A stretch of 64,000 nucleotides of DNA, taken from Nitriliruptoraceae bacterium (GTDB taxonomy: Bacteria > Actinomycetota > Nitriliruptoria > Nitriliruptorales > Nitriliruptoraceae). The position numbers and the translations under genes were made by a program. The notes beneath the pieces are model-generated. The model worked only from the letters and a program-made list of their open reading frames with translations. It made no database searches and was not told the DNA's origin. The DNA lies in contig PWLR01000019.1 of the NCBI GenBank assembly GCA_003558435.1, positions 1 to 64,000 of the forward strand, written 5' to 3'. Below, piece after piece: positions 11,515 to 27,532 of the stretch (the stretch's first letter is position 1; each line of letters starts with the position of its first letter).

Positions 11515-11530
11515 TCAAACCAACGTTTGA
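11515..11530. promoter_or_regulatory. Operator-like dyad 2 (TCAAAC-N4-GTTTGA)
   Basis: A second perfect inverted repeat with the same TCAA-N8-TTGA core, 35 bases before the start of the ArsR-rhodanese gene. Together with dyad 1 it would let the regulator control both divergent transcripts. Confidence 0.65.
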
Positions 11531-11565
11531 ATAGTGGTAGGCTGGTGATCGCACAGGAGGCGATC

Positions 11566-12240
11566 ATGACCACGAGCACCGTGCCTCGCCGGGAGGCCAA
11601 GGACGCGCTCTACGAGGGGTTCGCGTCCATCGCCCGGGCGCTCGCGTCGGGCCGGCGGGCCGAGATCGTCGATCTGCTGTCCCAGGGCGAACGCACGGTC
11701 GAGGAGATCGCTCAGGAGATCGGCCAGTCGCTGGCCAACACCTCCCACCACCTACGTGCGCTCGCCCGGGCCCAGCTGGTGACCACCAGGCGTGCCGGCA
11801 CCCACATCCACTACCGGCTCACCTCGAACACCGTGGTCGACGCCTGGGTCGCGCTGCGTGATCTCGCCGCCGAGCGGCTGGACGAGTTCGACGAGCTCGC
11901 CACGGCCTACCTCGGCGACCGCCACGAGCTCGAGACCATCACCCGCGACGGCTTGCTCGCACGGCTCGAACGGGGCGATCTGGTGCTCATCGACGTGCGT
12001 CCGGACGCCGAATATGCCGCCGGACACATCCCCGGGGCCATCTCGACACCCCCGGCCCAACTCGGCGTCGCGCTCGATGGACTCCCCGACCAGGGCGACG
12101 TCGTCGCCTACTGCCGGGGCCCCTACTGCGTCTACGCCGACGATGCCGTGCGCACGTTGCGGGCCCGCGGCCGCCGGGCGCTGCGCCTCGAGGATGGCTT
12201 GCCCGAGTGGCGACGTGCCGGGGGCGCCATCGAGCCGTGA
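11566..12240 (+). CDS. ArsR-type HTH regulator fused to rhodanese domain
   Basis: A 224-residue two-domain protein. Residues 15-100 are an ArsR-type winged helix (EEIAQEIGQSLANTSHHLRALARAQLV); residues 125-220 are a rhodanese domain (LIDVRPDAEYAAGHIPGAIS) with active-site Cys in VVAYCRGPYCVYADDAV. The rhodanese presumably senses a sulfane-sulfur or arsenical signal and releases the DNA. ATG 11566 follows AGGAGG; the ORF start 13 codons earlier has no site. It is transcribed away from the rhodanese-MFS-methyltransferase operon, with two TCAA-N8-TTGA dyads in the gap, so autoregulation plus control of the operon is the natural reading. Confidence 0.92.
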   Translation: MTTSTVPRREAKDALYEGFASIARALASGRRAEIVDLLSQGERTVEEIAQEIGQSLANTSHHLRALARAQLVTTRRAGTHIHYRLTSNTVVDAWVALRDLAAERLDEFDELATAYLGDRHELETITRDGLLARLERGDLVLIDVRPDAEYAAGHIPGAISTPPAQLGVALDGLPDQGDVVAYCRGPYCVYADDAVRTLRARGRRALRLEDGLPEWRRAGGAIEP

Positions 12241-20445: not shown

Positions 20446-21423
20446 TCAGGTACAGCCGTTGATGATGGCGTGTAGGTAGGGGAGGTGGACGACGGCGCTG
20501 GTGGCGGCGATGGTTCCGAGTAGGAGCACGGAGACGCTGGCGGTCCCGGTGCTGGCCCCGGCTCGGGTCGGCGCGACGAGGTGCCTGATGCGGTCGGGCC
20601 CGGCCGCGTGGAGCACGGCCGGTGCGTTGTCGGCAGGTGACGGGCACGGTGTCGCCTCGCCGAGCTTGAGTAGGGCGCCGGCGAGGGCGGTGGTGCCGGT
20701 CCGCCTCCGTGCAGCATCGTCTGCCGCGATCTCGAGGTAGTGGGGAACGGCGTCGGCCGCGGCCGTGACGACGGGGGCCCACCGCAGTGGTACGGCGAGC
20801 GCGTCGAGGACGGTTCGGATGCTGTGGTGACGCTGGGTGAGGTGTGCCTGCTCGTGGGCGAGCACCGCTGCGAGCTCTCGTGGGGTGAGCACGGCGAGGG
20901 CGCCGTCGGAGACGACGGTCCCGGTGTGGCGCGGGTAGGCGATGGCGAAGGGGCGCGGATCGGGGACCCGCCAGACGGCATGCCCGTGGATGCGCTCGCG
21001 CGACGCGCCGACGAGCATCGCTCGCGCTGAAGCGCGCGTGGCGGCTCGTTGCTGCCGGGCGGCGCGGATGGCGCTGATCGCGATGCCGGCCGCGGTGAGC
21101 GCCGGCATCGCGAGCAGGGCCGGGGCAGGGATCGGGGTGTGCAGGAGCGGGCCGGCGAACGGGTTGGTGAGATCGAGACATCGTTGGCACAGTTCGGCAG
21201 CCGCACCACCCAGGATGGTCGGGCCGGAGAGCATCCAGGCGAGCAGCGGGCCGATCGCCAGCACGGCGAGGACCCATGCCGCGATGCTGCCGGCCCACAG
21301 CGCGGTGGCCAGGCGCGGGGCGCGAGCGAGAGCTGGCGATGCGTGGCGCAGCAACCACGGCGTGACGGTCGCGCCAGCGACCACGGTCAGCGTCAGCAGC
21401 GCCGGGACTCCGAAGACGGTCAC
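20446..21423 (-). CDS. M56 family membrane metallopeptidase (BlaR1/MecR1-type)
   Basis: A 325-residue integral membrane protease related to BlaR1/MecR1. Hydrophobic segments lie at about 5-25, 45-65 and 100-125, then a cytosolic zinc-protease domain with AAVLAHEQAHLTQRH (HExxH) and the downstream third ligand in PHYLEIAADDAARR, and a last helix near the C-terminus. It has no extracellular penicillin-binding sensor domain, so beta-lactam sensing is not implied. It starts at GTG overlapping the BlaI-type repressor stop (GTGA). In the classical system the protease is switched on by a periplasmic signal and causes cleavage of the repressor; the same logic is inferred here. Confidence 0.9.
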   Translation of the reverse strand: MTVFGVPALLTLTVVAGATVTPWLLRHASPALARAPRLATALWAGSIAAWVLAVLAIGPLLAWMLSGPTILGGAAAELCQRCLDLTNPFAGPLLHTPIPAPALLAMPALTAAGIAISAIRAARQQRAATRASARAMLVGASRERIHGHAVWRVPDPRPFAIAYPRHTGTVVSDGALAVLTPRELAAVLAHEQAHLTQRHHSIRTVLDALAVPLRWAPVVTAAADAVPHYLEIAADDAARRRTGTTALAGALLKLGEATPCPSPADNAPAVLHAAGPDRIRHLVAPTRAGASTGTASVSVLLLGTIAATSAVVHLPYLHAIINGCT

Positions 21424-21806
21424 GTGCCCTCACGCCCGTTGCGAGCGAGGTAGTCGCGGAGCAGCGCGAGATCGTCGGGCGCCATGCCCGCCGCGAAGTG
21501 CAGGATCGACGCACGACGATCGCTGCTGGTCGCCAAAGCGTGCTCCATCAGCATGGCCGCGTGCTCGTCGCGCGATCGTCGCGGACGGTGTCGAGCGGCG
21601 TTGCGCTCGCGGAAGGGCACGACCATGCCCTTGCGCTCGAGGTTGCGCAGCACCGTGGAGATCGTGGTGTACGCCGGATCGTGCGGGAGACGGTCGATCA
21701 CCTCGCGGACCGTTGAGGCGCCGTGGTCCCACAGCACGTCCATGACCTGCTGCTCGAGCGCACCCAGGCGGGGGGCGCTGGCGTCTGGTTGGGGGTCCTC
21801 ACTCAC
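21420..21806 (-). CDS. BlaI/MecI/CopY family repressor
   Basis: A 128-residue winged-helix repressor. It reads LGALEQQVMDVLWDHGASTVREVIDRL, then the recognition helix region AYTTISTVLRNLERKGMV, the core of the BlaI family, and a C-terminal dimerisation part with ASILHFAAGM, near where BlaI is cut by its protease. It begins at GTG overlapping the stop of the CPVC membrane protein and ends overlapping the M56 protease start, both as GTGA. Its likely target is the nested dyad at 22426-22460 between this operon and the DsbA operon. Confidence 0.93.
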   Translation of the reverse strand: MSEDPQPDASAPRLGALEQQVMDVLWDHGASTVREVIDRLPHDPAYTTISTVLRNLERKGMVVPFRERNAARHRPRRSRDEHAAMLMEHALATSSDRRASILHFAAGMAPDDLALLRDYLARNGREGT

Positions 21807-22517: not shown

Positions 22518-23255
22518 ATGCCTGCAGTGGAGAAACGGTCCGGGAAGCGCACGTGGGTGGCGCCTACGGTGGTGGCGGCCGTGTGTGCGGCGTTGCTGGC
22601 CTTCGCACTCACCGGAGGCGACCGATCCGAGCAGGCCGACGAGGGAGCGGCCGCCCCCTCGGAGCCCGGAGCGTATGGGGAGCAGCCCGCAGGCGAGGAG
22701 TCCCCTGCGCTGGCGCTGGAGCGGCGCGACCCGGACGATCCGCTCACCGATGGTCCGGTTGATGCGCCCATCACGATGGTGGTGTACTCCGACTACCAGT
22801 GCCCGTTCTGTGCCGGCTGGTCCCACGAGACCCTGCCCACGATGCGGGAGTACGCGGCGGCTGGCGAGCTGCGCATCGAGTGGCGCGACATCAACATCCT
22901 GAGCGAGGTCTCGGAGCGTGCGTCGATCGCGTCCTACGCGGCCGGGTTGCAAGGTCGCTTCTGGGAGTACCACGAGGCCTTGTTCCCGGAAGGTGAGATC
23001 CGATCTGCGTCGGAGCTGACCGATCAGGGGCTGGTCGAGCTGGCCGTCGAAGTCGGCTTGGACGAGGACCGGTTCGTCGAGGACATGACGGCGGCCGACA
23101 CCGTGGACGCGATCGACCGCAACGCCCAGGAGGGACTGGCGGCCGGGGTCTCCTCGACGCCCGCGTTCGTCCTCGACGGCCAGCCGATGCTCGGCGCCCA
23201 ACCGACCCCGGTGTTCGTCGAGATGATCGAGCAAGCACTCACGGACGGTGCCTGA
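22518..23255 (+). CDS. DsbA-family thioredoxin-fold protein, membrane-anchored
   Basis: A 245-residue extracytoplasmic thiol oxidoreductase. One N-terminal membrane helix (VAPTVVAAVCAALLAFALTG) leads to an acidic linker and a DsbA-type thioredoxin fold with the active site YSDYQCPFCAGWSH and the cis-Pro region VSSTPAFVLDG. GAGGAG lies at good distance from the ATG. It is the first gene of a tight operon with a CcdA-like reductant carrier, a lipoprotein and an Lnt homologue. Depending on the partner it may oxidise or reduce secreted proteins; the CcdA partner points to reduction or isomerisation. Confidence 0.93.
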   Translation: MPAVEKRSGKRTWVAPTVVAAVCAALLAFALTGGDRSEQADEGAAAPSEPGAYGEQPAGEESPALALERRDPDDPLTDGPVDAPITMVVYSDYQCPFCAGWSHETLPTMREYAAAGELRIEWRDINILSEVSERASIASYAAGLQGRFWEYHEALFPEGEIRSASELTDQGLVELAVEVGLDEDRFVEDMTAADTVDAIDRNAQEGLAAGVSSTPAFVLDGQPMLGAQPTPVFVEMIEQALTDGA

Positions 23256-24134
23256 GTGGAGGTCGGACTGGTCACCGCCTTCCTGGGCGGGACGCTGGCC
23301 TTGCTCAGTCCCTGCGGTGCCCTGCTGCTGCCGGCGTTCTTCGCCTCGACCATCGGCGCCACCTCCCGGCTGGCCGGTCATGCGACGGTCTTCTACGCCG
23401 GCCTCGTGCTTGCGCTCGCACCGCTCGGTCTGGCCGCTGGAACCCTCGGGTCGATCTTCGCCACGCACCGAAGCGCCGTGGTCACGGTCACCGCGGTCCT
23501 GCTGATCGGTCTCGGCATGCTGCAGGCGCTCGGCGGTGGCTTCGACATGGCTCGCCTGCTGCCGACGGCAGGCCGGCTGCCCGAGCACGCGGCGAAACGA
23601 CATGGTGTCGCCCGGACGTTCGCCCTCGGTGCCGCCAGCGGGCTGGTGGGGGTGTGCACCGGGCCGATCCTCGGGGCCGTGCTCACCCTCGCGGCGGCGC
23701 AGGGCGACGTCACCGCAGCCCTGACCCTGCTGGCCGTCTACGGGGCCGGGATGGTCATCCCGCTCGTGGTGCTGGCCGCCTTCTGGGAACGGATCGGTCC
23801 ACGCGGGCACCGGCTGCTTCGCGGCCGCAGCCTGCGGTTCGCACGGCGTGACTGGCACACGACCTCGCTCGTCGCGGGGGTGTTGCTCATCACGGTCGGG
23901 GTGGTGTTCTGGGTGACCAACGGGCTCGTCGGGGTTCCCGAACTCATCCCGGTCCACGTGCAGCTGCGGCTGCAGGGGCTCGCCGGTGCTGCGGGCACGA
24001 GGTTCGACGTCATCGCCATCGTGGCGATCGCGGTTGTCGCCTCGAGCGTGTGGGCCCTGCGACGGCGACGACCCGGTCCGCAACCTGACGCCGTCAGCGG
24101 GTCCGAACGACGATCATCCGAAGAACGCGCGTGA
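23256..24134 (+). CDS. CcdA/DsbD-type cytochrome c biogenesis protein
   Basis: A 292-residue polytopic membrane protein of the CcdA/DsbD-beta family, which moves reducing equivalents from cytoplasmic thioredoxin to extracytoplasmic thiol proteins. It shows the paired cysteines of the family in helices 1 and 4: LLSPCGALLLPAFF and GLVGVCTGPILG. Six to eight hydrophobic segments are visible. It begins with GTG immediately after the TGA of the DsbA-like gene (zero spacing) and ends overlapping the next gene as GTGA. The DsbA-like protein is its natural electron acceptor. Confidence 0.92.
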   Translation: MEVGLVTAFLGGTLALLSPCGALLLPAFFASTIGATSRLAGHATVFYAGLVLALAPLGLAAGTLGSIFATHRSAVVTVTAVLLIGLGMLQALGGGFDMARLLPTAGRLPEHAAKRHGVARTFALGAASGLVGVCTGPILGAVLTLAAAQGDVTAALTLLAVYGAGMVIPLVVLAAFWERIGPRGHRLLRGRSLRFARRDWHTTSLVAGVLLITVGVVFWVTNGLVGVPELIPVHVQLRLQGLAGAAGTRFDVIAIVAIAVVASSVWALRRRRPGPQPDAVSGSERRSSEERA

Positions 24135-25342
24135 GCCGGCCCTCCCCGCAAGGAGCTGCGGCCGGCACGGTGGCGGTGCTGTTGAGCGCCTGCACCCTGC
24201 TGCCCGGTAGCGGGTACCCGACCGGCATCGATCCAGAGATCCGCACGGACGGGACGCCCGCGCCGGCGATCGTGCTCGACTCCGTCGAGCTACCCGAACC
24301 ACTCGTCGACCGCGAACTGGTCGACCTCGGGTGGGACGCCGTTCCCGAGGAGTCCGCCGGGGTTTTCCTCGGTCTTGGCCAGATCACCGACGACGCCCTA
24401 CGACTCTCCGCGGTCACCGAAGAGGGCATGGTCCTGTGGACCACCGAGCGTCCATTGTCGTGCGCCGGGTTCGCGCTCACCGCGGACAGCGATCGGCTCC
24501 TCGCGGTGCTCACCGACGTCTCACCCGGCAGGGCCTCGGTCGCCGTGACCACCGCCAGTGCCTACGACCTTCACACCGGCGAACAGATCTGGGGCCCGGT
24601 CGAGGTGCCAGGCCCGCACGCCGGCCCCGGACTCGTGTTCGCCACGCTCCCGACCGGAGGTGCGATGGGCAGCAGCGGGCCACGCGTCGCACTCGACCCG
24701 GCGACCGGGACCGTGTCCGCAACCGAGGACGAGCTCGACGGTGCTCGACTGGTGGGCGAGTACCACGGCACCCTGCTGATCGTCGATCACGAGCACCTGC
24801 TCGCCCACGACACCAACGACGGCCGCGAACGGTGGCGCCTGCCGCTCGCCGACCTCGACCTCCACGACGCAGCCCAGGTGGCCGCAGCACCGGACAGCAC
24901 CCCCGGCCCCGGGCTCGCGTTCGTCGGCGACCGCGACACCGGCTACGCGCTGGTCGACCTCATCGCGGGGAGCATCGTCACAACCGCCGCACTGGGCGCC
25001 GCCACCGACCCCAGCACGAACGTGCACGTCACCATCGATCATGACCAGCTGTACGGCCACGACATGGACGGCGACCCGATCTGGGACCACGCGATCGAGC
25101 CCGGGACCCGGATCGCCAGCGCCGGCAACGGTGTCCTCTACCTCCTGACCGCCGGCAACATCCACACCCGCGACACCGAAACCGGCCAACCCCTCGGGGT
25201 CTACGAAGACCCCCGCACCACCAACGCAGCCCTGCCCCGACACATCGACGACGCAGGCGCCGCCGTCCTCGAAACCTCCCAAGGCTTCCTGCTCGCCACC
25301 ATCAACCCGGTCGGAACCACCGCCGCACCGACGGGACCGTGA
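24131..25342 (+). CDS. Lipoprotein with PQQ-like beta-propeller repeats
   Basis: A 403-residue predicted lipoprotein. The signal region is very short and ends in VAVLLSACTLLPG, a lipobox with Cys at about position 21. The rest consists of repeated beta-propeller blades of the PQQ/quinoprotein-like type (AYDLHTGEQIWGPVEV, AHDTNDGRERWRLPL, GHDMDGDPIWDHAI, TRDTETGQPLGVY). No catalytic residues can be named, so it is probably a scaffold or ligand-binding protein on the outer face of the membrane. It overlaps both neighbours as GTGA. Sitting between a thiol relay and an Lnt homologue, it is a plausible client of both. Confidence 0.85.
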   Translation: MSRPSPQGAAAGTVAVLLSACTLLPGSGYPTGIDPEIRTDGTPAPAIVLDSVELPEPLVDRELVDLGWDAVPEESAGVFLGLGQITDDALRLSAVTEEGMVLWTTERPLSCAGFALTADSDRLLAVLTDVSPGRASVAVTTASAYDLHTGEQIWGPVEVPGPHAGPGLVFATLPTGGAMGSSGPRVALDPATGTVSATEDELDGARLVGEYHGTLLIVDHEHLLAHDTNDGRERWRLPLADLDLHDAAQVAAAPDSTPGPGLAFVGDRDTGYALVDLIAGSIVTTAALGAATDPSTNVHVTIDHDQLYGHDMDGDPIWDHAIEPGTRIASAGNGVLYLLTAGNIHTRDTETGQPLGVYEDPRTTNAALPRHIDDAGAAVLETSQGFLLATINPVGTTAAPTGP

Positions 25343-26901
25343 TCGGCGTCGTCACGCGAGACGCACCGGCTGGCGCGATGCGCGCGCCCGCCGCGCCACT
25401 GGGTCCGACGGCGATGATCATCCGGCTGATCGCGGCGGGAGCTGGTGGCGCTCTGACCGGCACTGCGGTGCTCACCGGCTGGTGGGCGGTCGCGGTCATC
25501 GGCACCGGGGTGGTCGCCAGCGCGGTGCACGACATCCGCCCGGCACGTCGTGCCATGGTCGGGACCGCAGCCGGCTGCGTGCACGCGACCGTCACCACCC
25601 TGTGGGCCTCGCAGTTCAACGCCTCCGCAGCCGCTGCGCTGATCCTCATCCAGGCTGCCGGATGGGGACTGGCCGCGCTGGCCGTCTCCATGCGCGCACG
25701 CTGGCCGTGGCCGCTCGCCCCGGCGCTAGCGATCTCCGAATGGGCACGCACCCACTGGCCGCTTGGGGGCTATCCCCTCGCCCAGCTGTGGCTCACCCAA
25801 GCCGACGGACCGCTCGCCGCGCTCGCACCACTGCTCGGCCCCTTCGCGATCACCGCTGCGATCGTGCTCCTTGCCACCGCCGGCATCGCCGCACTGCAGC
25901 GACGACCCGCAGCGATCCGCGTCCTCGCCGCATCGCTGATCACGGTCGGTGCCGCTCAGCTGGCGCCGATCCCATCACCGGTCGCGCCGATGGAGGTCGC
26001 TGCGGTCCAAGGCGGCGACCGGCGCGGCGTCCCGGCCATGCGCAACGACCCCGGCCCTCTGCTTGAACGTCAGATCGATCTCACCCGGTCGCTCGACACC
26101 GACGTCGACCTCGTCGTGTGGCCCGAGAGCGCGCTCGCCGTACACGGCGCGATGACGACCGGTGACCGCCGACTTCTCCAGGAGCTCGCTGATGGGTTCG
26201 ACGGCGTGCTGATCGCCGGAGTCGTCGAGCGCTTCGACCTCCCCGACGGCGCAGGCTGGTTCCGCAACGCCGCGGTTGCGAGCGACGAGACCGGCACGCT
26301 CGACCGGTACGACAAGCAGCTCCCCGTACCGTTCGGCGAACGCGTTCCAGCACGACGGTTCGTCGAACTGGTCGTCGACCTCTCGCTCGTCCCGCGCGAC
26401 ATGGTCGCCGGTAGCGGCCCGCCGATCCTACGTACGGAACACGCTGACGTCGGTATCGCCATCTCCTACGAGAACCTCTTCCCCCGTGTCGCGCGGCAAG
26501 CCGTGCTCCAAGGCGCTGACATCCTCGCCGTTCCCACCCTCGCATCCTCCTACGTCACCGATGAGATCCCCACCCAACAGCTCGCCGCCGCACGGATGCG
26601 TGCCCGCGAAACCGGCCGGGACCTCGCCATCGTCGGATCGACCGGTCCCACGGCCCTCATCCGCGCAGATGGCACGCTCGCTGCCCAAGCACCAACCGAC
26701 ACACCCCACGTCGCCCAGGCAAGGCTCCAGACACGGTCGGGCACCACCCTGTACACGCGTTACGGCGACGCCCTACCACTGGCTGCAGCCGCGCTCGTGC
26801 TGTCCATGACCGCCCGGAGACCGGCTCCGCGCCCGCTCCATGCGGGCCTACCCGCCGAACCCGAGCATCTGGCAGCTCGACGCCAAGAACGACGACCGTG
26901 A
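25339..26901 (+). CDS. lnt: Apolipoprotein N-acyltransferase homologue with Cys-to-Ser change
   Basis: A 520-residue Lnt-like protein: about seven membrane helices (residues 25-215) then a nitrilase-type domain. Lnt adds the third acyl chain to lipoproteins. The triad positions read VVWPESAL (Glu263), YDKQLPVPFGERVP (Lys326) and GIAISYENLFP, where the nucleophile Cys of E. coli Lnt (Cys387) is replaced by Ser376, codon TCC. It is translated from GTG overlapping the lipoprotein stop (GTGA). The tail after about residue 490 is Pro/Arg-rich and runs into an integrase remnant, so the natural C-terminus may be altered. Activity is uncertain; it may bind lipoprotein without acylating it. Confidence 0.88.
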   Translation: MIGVVTRDAPAGAMRAPAAPLGPTAMIIRLIAAGAGGALTGTAVLTGWWAVAVIGTGVVASAVHDIRPARRAMVGTAAGCVHATVTTLWASQFNASAAAALILIQAAGWGLAALAVSMRARWPWPLAPALAISEWARTHWPLGGYPLAQLWLTQADGPLAALAPLLGPFAITAAIVLLATAGIAALQRRPAAIRVLAASLITVGAAQLAPIPSPVAPMEVAAVQGGDRRGVPAMRNDPGPLLERQIDLTRSLDTDVDLVVWPESALAVHGAMTTGDRRLLQELADGFDGVLIAGVVERFDLPDGAGWFRNAAVASDETGTLDRYDKQLPVPFGERVPARRFVELVVDLSLVPRDMVAGSGPPILRTEHADVGIAISYENLFPRVARQAVLQGADILAVPTLASSYVTDEIPTQQLAAARMRARETGRDLAIVGSTGPTALIRADGTLAAQAPTDTPHVAQARLQTRSGTTLYTRYGDALPLAAAALVLSMTARRPAPRPLHAGLPAEPEHLAARRQERRP

Positions 26902-27292
26902 AGGCACCATCGCGCTCGAGACCCGCACCATCACCGTGTTGCACGATCACCGCGAGCGGCAACTCGACGTGCGGCGCGCCGCCGGCCCCGTCTGGTCGAC
27001 ACAGCCACAGGATCACGACCTGGTGTTCACCCGCCCCGACGGCGGCGCCATCCCGCCCAAGCGCGCCTCACGGATGTTCACCCGCCACGTCGACGCCGCC
27101 GGCCTACCCCGCTCCGGCGTCCACGGCCTCCGTCACAGCTGGGCCACACTGGCGCGCCGGTGTCCCCATCAAGGTCGTTTCCGAGCGCATGGTCGCGCCG
27201 ACCCCGCCGTGACCATGCAGGTGTACGCCCACGCCCTCGAAGGCGACGACGCCACCGCCGCCGAGACCACAACCATCTTCGACGACCGATGA
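26865..27292 (+). pseudogene. Degenerate tyrosine recombinase C-terminal remnant
   Basis: The last 140 or so codons of a phage-type integrase overlap the end of the Lnt gene. LDAKNDDREGTIALETRTITVLHDHRERQ, DHDLVFTRPDGGAIPP and GVHGLRHSWATLA give the catalytic HxxR region, and ADPAVTMQVYAHAL gives the Tyr region. Between them the frame slips: the expected RAGVPIKVVSERM appears in the next frame and the original frame returns at ADPAVT, so two compensating indels have corrupted it. The N-terminal and core-binding domains are missing. It points at tRNA-Leu 157 bases away, the classic place for such an element to insert. Confidence 0.8.
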
Positions 27293-27399: not shown

Positions 27400-27448
27400 C
27401 TGCTGCGATTCTGCCGGATCCGGGCCGGTAGACCAGCCGACGCGATCG

Positions 27449-27532
27449 TGGGCGGAGGGGGACTTGAACCCCCATGTCCATAAGGACACACGGACCTGAA
27501 CCGTGCGCGTCTGCCAATTCCGCCACCCGCCC
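27449..27532 (-). tRNA. tRNA-Leu (CAG)
   Basis: An 84-base class II tRNA on the minus strand. The acceptor stem GGGCGGG pairs with TCCGCCC plus discriminator A; the anticodon arm is CACGG-TTCAGGT-CCGTG with anticodon CAG; a long variable arm and the T arm (GGGGGTTCAAGTCCCCC) are complete. CCA is not encoded. A tRNA-Leu next to fhaA is also found in mycobacteria, so this is a chromosomal gene used as an insertion site by the element whose integrase remnant lies downstream. Confidence 0.96.

Follow-up and report, generated by a model that had tools for sequence, protein, structure and literature searches.

A 64,000-nucleotide stretch of contig PWLR01000019.1 from a Nitriliruptoraceae bacterium (assembly GCA_003558435.1), referred to below as the window, contains on its forward strand a gene (25339..26901, GTG start, 520 amino acids) for a homologue of Lnt with Ser at the nucleophile position; this product is called Ser-Lnt here. 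Lnt, apolipoprotein N-acyltransferase, adds the third fatty acid to bacterial lipoproteins. The gene is the last of a four-gene operon. The first gene (22518..23255, forward) encodes a membrane-anchored DsbA-like thioredoxin with a CPFC motif (PF13462 and PF01323), the second (23256..24134, forward) a CcdA/DsbD-TM-like membrane thiol carrier (PF02683, 49.5 bits), and the third (24131..25342, forward) a lipoprotein with the lipobox LLSAC and PQQ/BamB-like repeats (PF13360, 28.5 bits). Spacings between consecutive genes are 0, -4 and -4, and the GTG start of Ser-Lnt overlaps the stop of the lipoprotein gene, an arrangement of translational coupling. This coupling had been claimed in an earlier reading made from the letters alone (the sequence-only reading), and the 4-base overlap and the lipobox bear it out.

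Upstream of the operon, on the reverse strand, a gene for a BlaI/CopY-type repressor (21423..21806; PF03965, 84.3 bits) is paired with that for an M48/M56-type membrane peptidase (20449..21423; PF01435, 35 bits, with PF05569 below its cut-off). Downstream, a C-terminal remnant of an integrase gene (26840..27292, forward; PF00589 weak, PHROG integrase at 7e-11) overlaps the 3' end of the Ser-Lnt gene by 62 bases in a different frame, and a tRNA-Leu (CAG) gene, a possible old integration site, was located by ARAGORN at 27448..27532 on the reverse strand; an att repeat of this tRNA gene was sought within the window and was not found. A past insertion of a mobile element at the locus is plausible. 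The DsbA, CcdA, BlaI and M48/M56 neighbours and the integrase remnant beside tRNA-Leu could belong to a mobile copper/cytochrome-c island; no copper ATPase or oxidase was present among the scanned neighbours. Given the overlap with the integrase remnant, the last residues of Ser-Lnt may be junction sequence. Elsewhere in the window (11527-12237), a rhodanese domain is joined in one protein to an ArsR-type metal regulator.

Fold and active site of Ser-Lnt

Ser-Lnt scores 152.4 bits against the curated NCBIfam model TIGR00546 (lnt), of which the cut-off is 132.9, and a nitrilase superfamily domain (PF00795, CN_hydrolase) was found at residues 220-464 with 63.2 bits. The Pfam search for LNT_N (PF20154) gave no match in this protein, though its membrane part folds like that of Lnt. 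The AlphaFold model (pLDDT 90, pTM 0.89) can be superposed end to end on the solved Lnt structures of E. coli and P. aeruginosa by VIA-align (Z 39-41, 443-477 residues), in agreement with the earlier view that the gene is full length, and Foldseek matched the model to Lnt at E 2.5e-27, so that the predicted structure has both the membrane part and the nitrilase fold. Because the defining Cys was looked for and Ser was found instead, we place the protein in the Lnt fold family as its Ser variant and call it a putative N-acyltransferase.

In the HMMER alignment with the solved P. aeruginosa and E. coli enzymes, Ser376 (codon TCC, 26464..26466, forward) falls on the catalytic Cys, which is Cys387 in E. 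coli Lnt. The replacement had been the main claim of the sequence-only reading, and both this alignment and the orthologues described below confirm it. The other two members of the triad, which that reading had also located, were read directly: Glu263 (26125..26127, forward), the general base at the position of E. coli E267, and Lys326 (26314..26316, forward) at that of K335. Glu334 and Glu378, the equivalents of E343 and E389, are intact as well. The sole Cys of the protein, Cys80, lies in the membrane part and outside the nitrilase domain, and thus no other Cys can serve as the nucleophile.

Occurrence and origins of the Ser form

Querying genome contigs with the single protein gave no matches, and a first set of matches was obtained with an alignment query, which selects for similarity to the Ser group. 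Among 311 aligned Lnt homologues of Actinomycetota, an alignment that left out four distant or short matches, the nucleophile site is Ser in 195 and Cys in 116, with no other residue. Glu263, Lys326 and Glu334 are invariant in all 311 rows; Glu378 never varies among the Ser rows and is replaced by Asp in 10 Cys rows. Plasmid copies added later agree with this pattern. All six Ser codons are used at the site (TCN in 167 rows, AGY in 28), with at least 11 switches between TCN and AGY on the tree. Since each such switch takes two base changes and Ser has been retained through them, the codons point to selection for Ser at this site. Two nearby columns differ between the groups: Asn or Asp at 402 is found in 106 of the 113 Cys rows outside family f73 and in only 3 of the 195 Ser rows, and His414 is found in no Ser row (0/195). 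The Cys rows of f73 keep the residues of the Ser clades at both 402 and 414.

A tree of 75 rows was constructed by IQ-TREE with the nucleophile site masked, and 200 bootstrap trees were examined. It has 4 changes between Ser and Cys (bootstrap 5-95% range 4-4), of which the starred branches alone force 3, and larger FastTree runs gave 3 or 4. The first Ser clade is a large one including the window protein, and its 18-row Ser group was supported at 100/100 with the site masked. The second consists of families f31, f33, f51, f68, f77, f83, f92 and f93 together with members of f3-f5, which belong to the window's class (support for the entire clade 90/91). The third is small, of mycobacterial type (f29), and adjoins Cys forms. 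The Cys rows of f73 nest inside the second clade (100/99) and share residues with it at 229, 402, 414 and 435; this is suggestive, and only suggestive, of a reversion from Ser to Cys, and the AU test against trees keeping f73 outside that clade was not significant (p 0.08). Cys is present at 229 in nearly all rows of the second clade, and in its members from the window's class this Cys lies within a DPCPx...DCPG-like motif, perhaps a disulfide; neither is present in the window protein.

The sequence-only reading had advised a search for a second Lnt gene, and the source genome does hold one, on contig C176, with Cys at the site (IICFETKF) and 27-31% identity to Ser-Lnt. Because the genome has this normal Cys-Lnt elsewhere, the window gene is an accessory copy and the Cys-Lnt is the housekeeping one. 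In genomes G060, G037 and G038, likewise, one Ser copy is accompanied by one Cys copy, and in seven genomes from the same class as the window the only copy over the TIGR00546 cut-off has Ser. The closest orthologue (58% identity) overlaps an lgt gene and is itself followed by a rhodanese gene; its genome has three lgt copies, whereas the source genome has one. The companion lipoprotein of the window has no match in any fetched locus. It is therefore not conserved beside the orthologues, which do carry Ser.

Since the first set, fetched by similarity, leaned to Ser, a new census was taken of 149 genomes, each at least 90% complete and drawn evenly from the class of genome G156, by searching them with the neutral TIGR00546 model. 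We infer this class to be Acidimicrobiia from named records of the same clade, which belong to Acidimicrobiales, Microthrixaceae and Ilumatobacteraceae. Ser alone was found in 101 genomes, Cys alone in 32, both in 0, and no Lnt over the cut-off in 16; Lgt is present in 144/149 and LspA in 146/149. These figures include G325 and G369, which had been dropped from the gene set as duplicates and were read separately. Genes resembling hemG and hemE, with products judged by eye, lie near Ser-Lnt in 58/77 and 37/77 named loci, respectively. These surroundings are a chromosomal housekeeping setting, and most Ser-Lnts are ordinary chromosomal genes.

Four weak second matches in Ser-only genomes were fetched. 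Two (L263 and L264) are Cys hydrolases of about 250 amino acids, and the other two (L262 of G054 and L339 of G417) are distant Lnt-like proteins of 440-510 amino acids that read Cys-Trp/Phe-Asp at the site and fall well short of the lnt cut-off, possibly a separate Lnt-like family; G054 and G417 count as Ser-only by the curated cut-off alone. In genus g167 of family f50 (G244, G257, G264, G317, G321, G349, G353, G365, G401 and G563), lgt and lspA are kept and no Lnt exceeds the cut-off, an apparent loss of N-acylation as judged from gene content. Ser-Lnts of the Acidimicrobiia type were also found in metagenome-assembled genome records titled Bifidobacterium breve (three) or Acidobacteria (one) (L065, L068, L069 and L064), and these are probably misnamed or mixed bins.

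The Ser copy of G037 is surrounded by genes for DUF3105, DUF305, BlaI and cytochrome-c maturation. On plasmids of Corynebacterium marinum, C. halotolerans and C. comes, the Ser copy follows TlpA-CcdA-ResB-CcsB, in an island with a multicopper oxidase and a metal ATPase, and on Pseudonocardia plasmids Ser-Lnt adjoins a rhodanese gene. Rhodococcus pyridinivorans has the order TlpA-CcdA-ResB-CcsB-lnt-M23-DUF3105-DUF305, in which lnt is of the Cys type. The slot TlpA-CcdA-ResB-CcsB-lnt-M23 is therefore occupied by Ser-Lnt on the Corynebacterium plasmids and by a Cys-Lnt of another clade in Rhodococcus, and the filling of one slot by two separate clades suggests that they do the same job there. Accessory Cys-type lnt genes were found in copper/cytochrome-c biogenesis islands on plasmids of Rhodococcus, Cellulomonas and Cryobacterium (L346, L347, L348 and L343), and islands of this kind in Actinomycetota seem to carry lnt regularly.

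Interpretation: a proposed Ser nucleophile

In work on Lnt the Cys is regarded as essential, with E. coli C387S serving as a dead or trapped mutant, and the nitrilase superfamily as a whole is Cys-based. With moderate confidence, we consider that the window gene encodes a catalytically competent relative of Lnt that uses Ser376 as its nucleophile in place of Cys. Glu263 would deprotonate the Ser376 hydroxyl and Lys326 would stabilise the oxyanion, so that an acyl chain from a phospholipid would be held on Ser376 as an oxygen ester (an oxyester acyl-enzyme) and then handed to a lipoprotein whose diacylated Cys1 offers a free amino group. As an accessory copy, the enzyme would be co-expressed with the lipoprotein and the extracytoplasmic thiol-redox proteins of its operon; the transfer to lipoproteins and the substrate range are, like the nucleophile, what we infer. 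This reading is favoured because no residue but Ser or Cys occurs at the site and the other catalytic residues do not vary, and because most of one class has the Ser form as its only Lnt and this form shares an operon slot with Cys-Lnt. It is further supported by the overlap of the closest orthologue with lgt and by E. coli C387S, which acylates itself (PMC5500888). It is weakened by the reported inactivity or weakness of that mutant when purified, which makes no onward transfer because its oxyester is too stable (PMC5500888) and has low activity in another report (PMC10313180), and by the Ser protein BCG_2279c, which did not replace the Cys-Lnt BCG_2070c of M. bovis BCG (PMC3850990), though that protein belongs, by inference, to a different small Ser clade.

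For Actinomycetota as a whole, we judge it slightly better than an even chance that a Ser-nucleophile Lnt arose at least three times, is the sole enzyme for lipoprotein N-acylation in most members of one class (probably Acidimicrobiia) and has also spread on plasmids and islands as an accessory gene. If this is true, a Ser enzyme exists inside the Cys-based nitrilase superfamily, and if repeated swaps between Cys and Ser kept the enzyme working, the mechanism of Lnt is wider than has been thought. Comparison of the two forms would then reveal which nearby residues permit onward transfer from an oxygen ester. The matter also bears on whether an entire class of Actinomycetota makes triacylated lipoproteins, and on inhibitors directed against the thiol of Lnt.

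An unlikely alternative is a half-enzyme or an altered acceptor, in which Ser376 is acylated and the ester is delivered elsewhere (to water, a sugar or lipid hydroxyl, or another amine), making the protein a phospholipase or a different acyltransferase. The E. coli mutant that takes up an acyl chain without passing it on (PMC5500888) is what such a protein would resemble, and the columns at 402 and 414, which change together with Ser, could mark another acceptor. However, the whole Lnt fold is kept, and the adjacency to lgt, the distribution as sole Lnt in genomes keeping Lgt and LspA, and the slot shared with Cys-Lnt argue for work on lipoproteins.

Rather improbable is a non-catalytic partner that has lost the chemistry and binds lipoproteins or the housekeeping Lnt. 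Genomes G000, G060, G037 and G038 and those of mycobacterial type do have a Cys copy as well, BCG_2279c did not compensate, and Lnt2 of S. scabies, as cited in PMC3850990, is said to be needed for efficiency without itself replacing Lnt1; but most Ser genomes have no Cys partner, and all 195 Ser rows, diverged as they are, keep Ser, Glu, Lys and Glu through repeated codon switches. The sequence-only reading had offered two explanations, Ser as nucleophile and recruitment as a dedicated lipoprotein-binding protein. The former is the one we prefer, and the latter is disfavoured, as a non-catalytic binder would not need these invariant residues and the companion lipoprotein is not conserved.

A refinement of the Ser-nucleophile reading, to which we give a slightly lower probability still, is adaptation to copper or oxidising conditions, by which a thiol-free Lnt that copper cannot poison would be carried on metal islands. 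Acylation of lipoproteins is impaired by copper, and cutE is the same gene as lnt (PMC6538781); a mobile precedent induced by copper exists in lit2 with lgt2 (PMC8275575), and mobile copper elements carry lipoprotein-modifying genes (PMC8275575, PMC7387801). Ser-Lnts in the Corynebacterium copper islands and the thiol-redox genes beside the window copy fit this idea, but similar plasmid islands of Rhodococcus, Cellulomonas and Cryobacterium carry Cys-Lnts, and most Ser-Lnts are chromosomal. Since the islands carry both forms, copper goes with lnt and not with Ser, and a copper-proof role, though possible, is not our preferred explanation of the Ser. Sequencing error, chance, or misalignment hiding an alternative active-site Cys was ruled out, its probability being practically negligible, by Ser in the 58%-identical orthologue and in more than 100 clade members and by Cys80 as the only Cys.

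Compared with E. coli and P. aeruginosa Lnt, Ser-Lnts share the full-length fold, the triad residues Glu and Lys, two further Glu (the second and the third), a TIGR00546 score over the cut-off, and lipoprotein and lgt neighbours, and differ in having Ser at the nucleophile position, in positions 402 and 414 and, for the window protein, in the missing LNT_N match. BCG_2279c and Rv2262c-Rv2261c of slow-growing mycobacteria also have Ser at the C387 position in a second copy beside a Cys-Lnt, whereas the rows of probable mycobacterial type (f29) make up a different Ser clade that adjoins Cys forms, and so the change to Ser arose separately there. Lit2/Lgt2 of the Listeria and Enterococcus copper elements are similar in that an accessory gene for lipoprotein N-acylation is mobile and lies in copper islands or close to lgt, but Lit2 is of another protein family and catalyses another reaction. 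Lnt2 of S. scabies, as cited in PMC3850990, is again a second Lnt copy in an actinomycete, and it keeps the essential residues, unlike the Ser forms.

In the open-access literature, no report of an Acidimicrobiia Lnt or of a Ser-nucleophile Lnt clade was found beyond BCG_2279c, and no lipoprotein analysis from any Ser-only organism. The impression given by the sequence-only reading that the window gene is singular does not hold, because a large Ser clade exists and a Ser Lnt was already described in 2013 for BCG_2279c/Rv2262c (PMC3850990). The plasmid Ser forms are annotated plainly as "lnt", which hides the difference between Ser and Cys.
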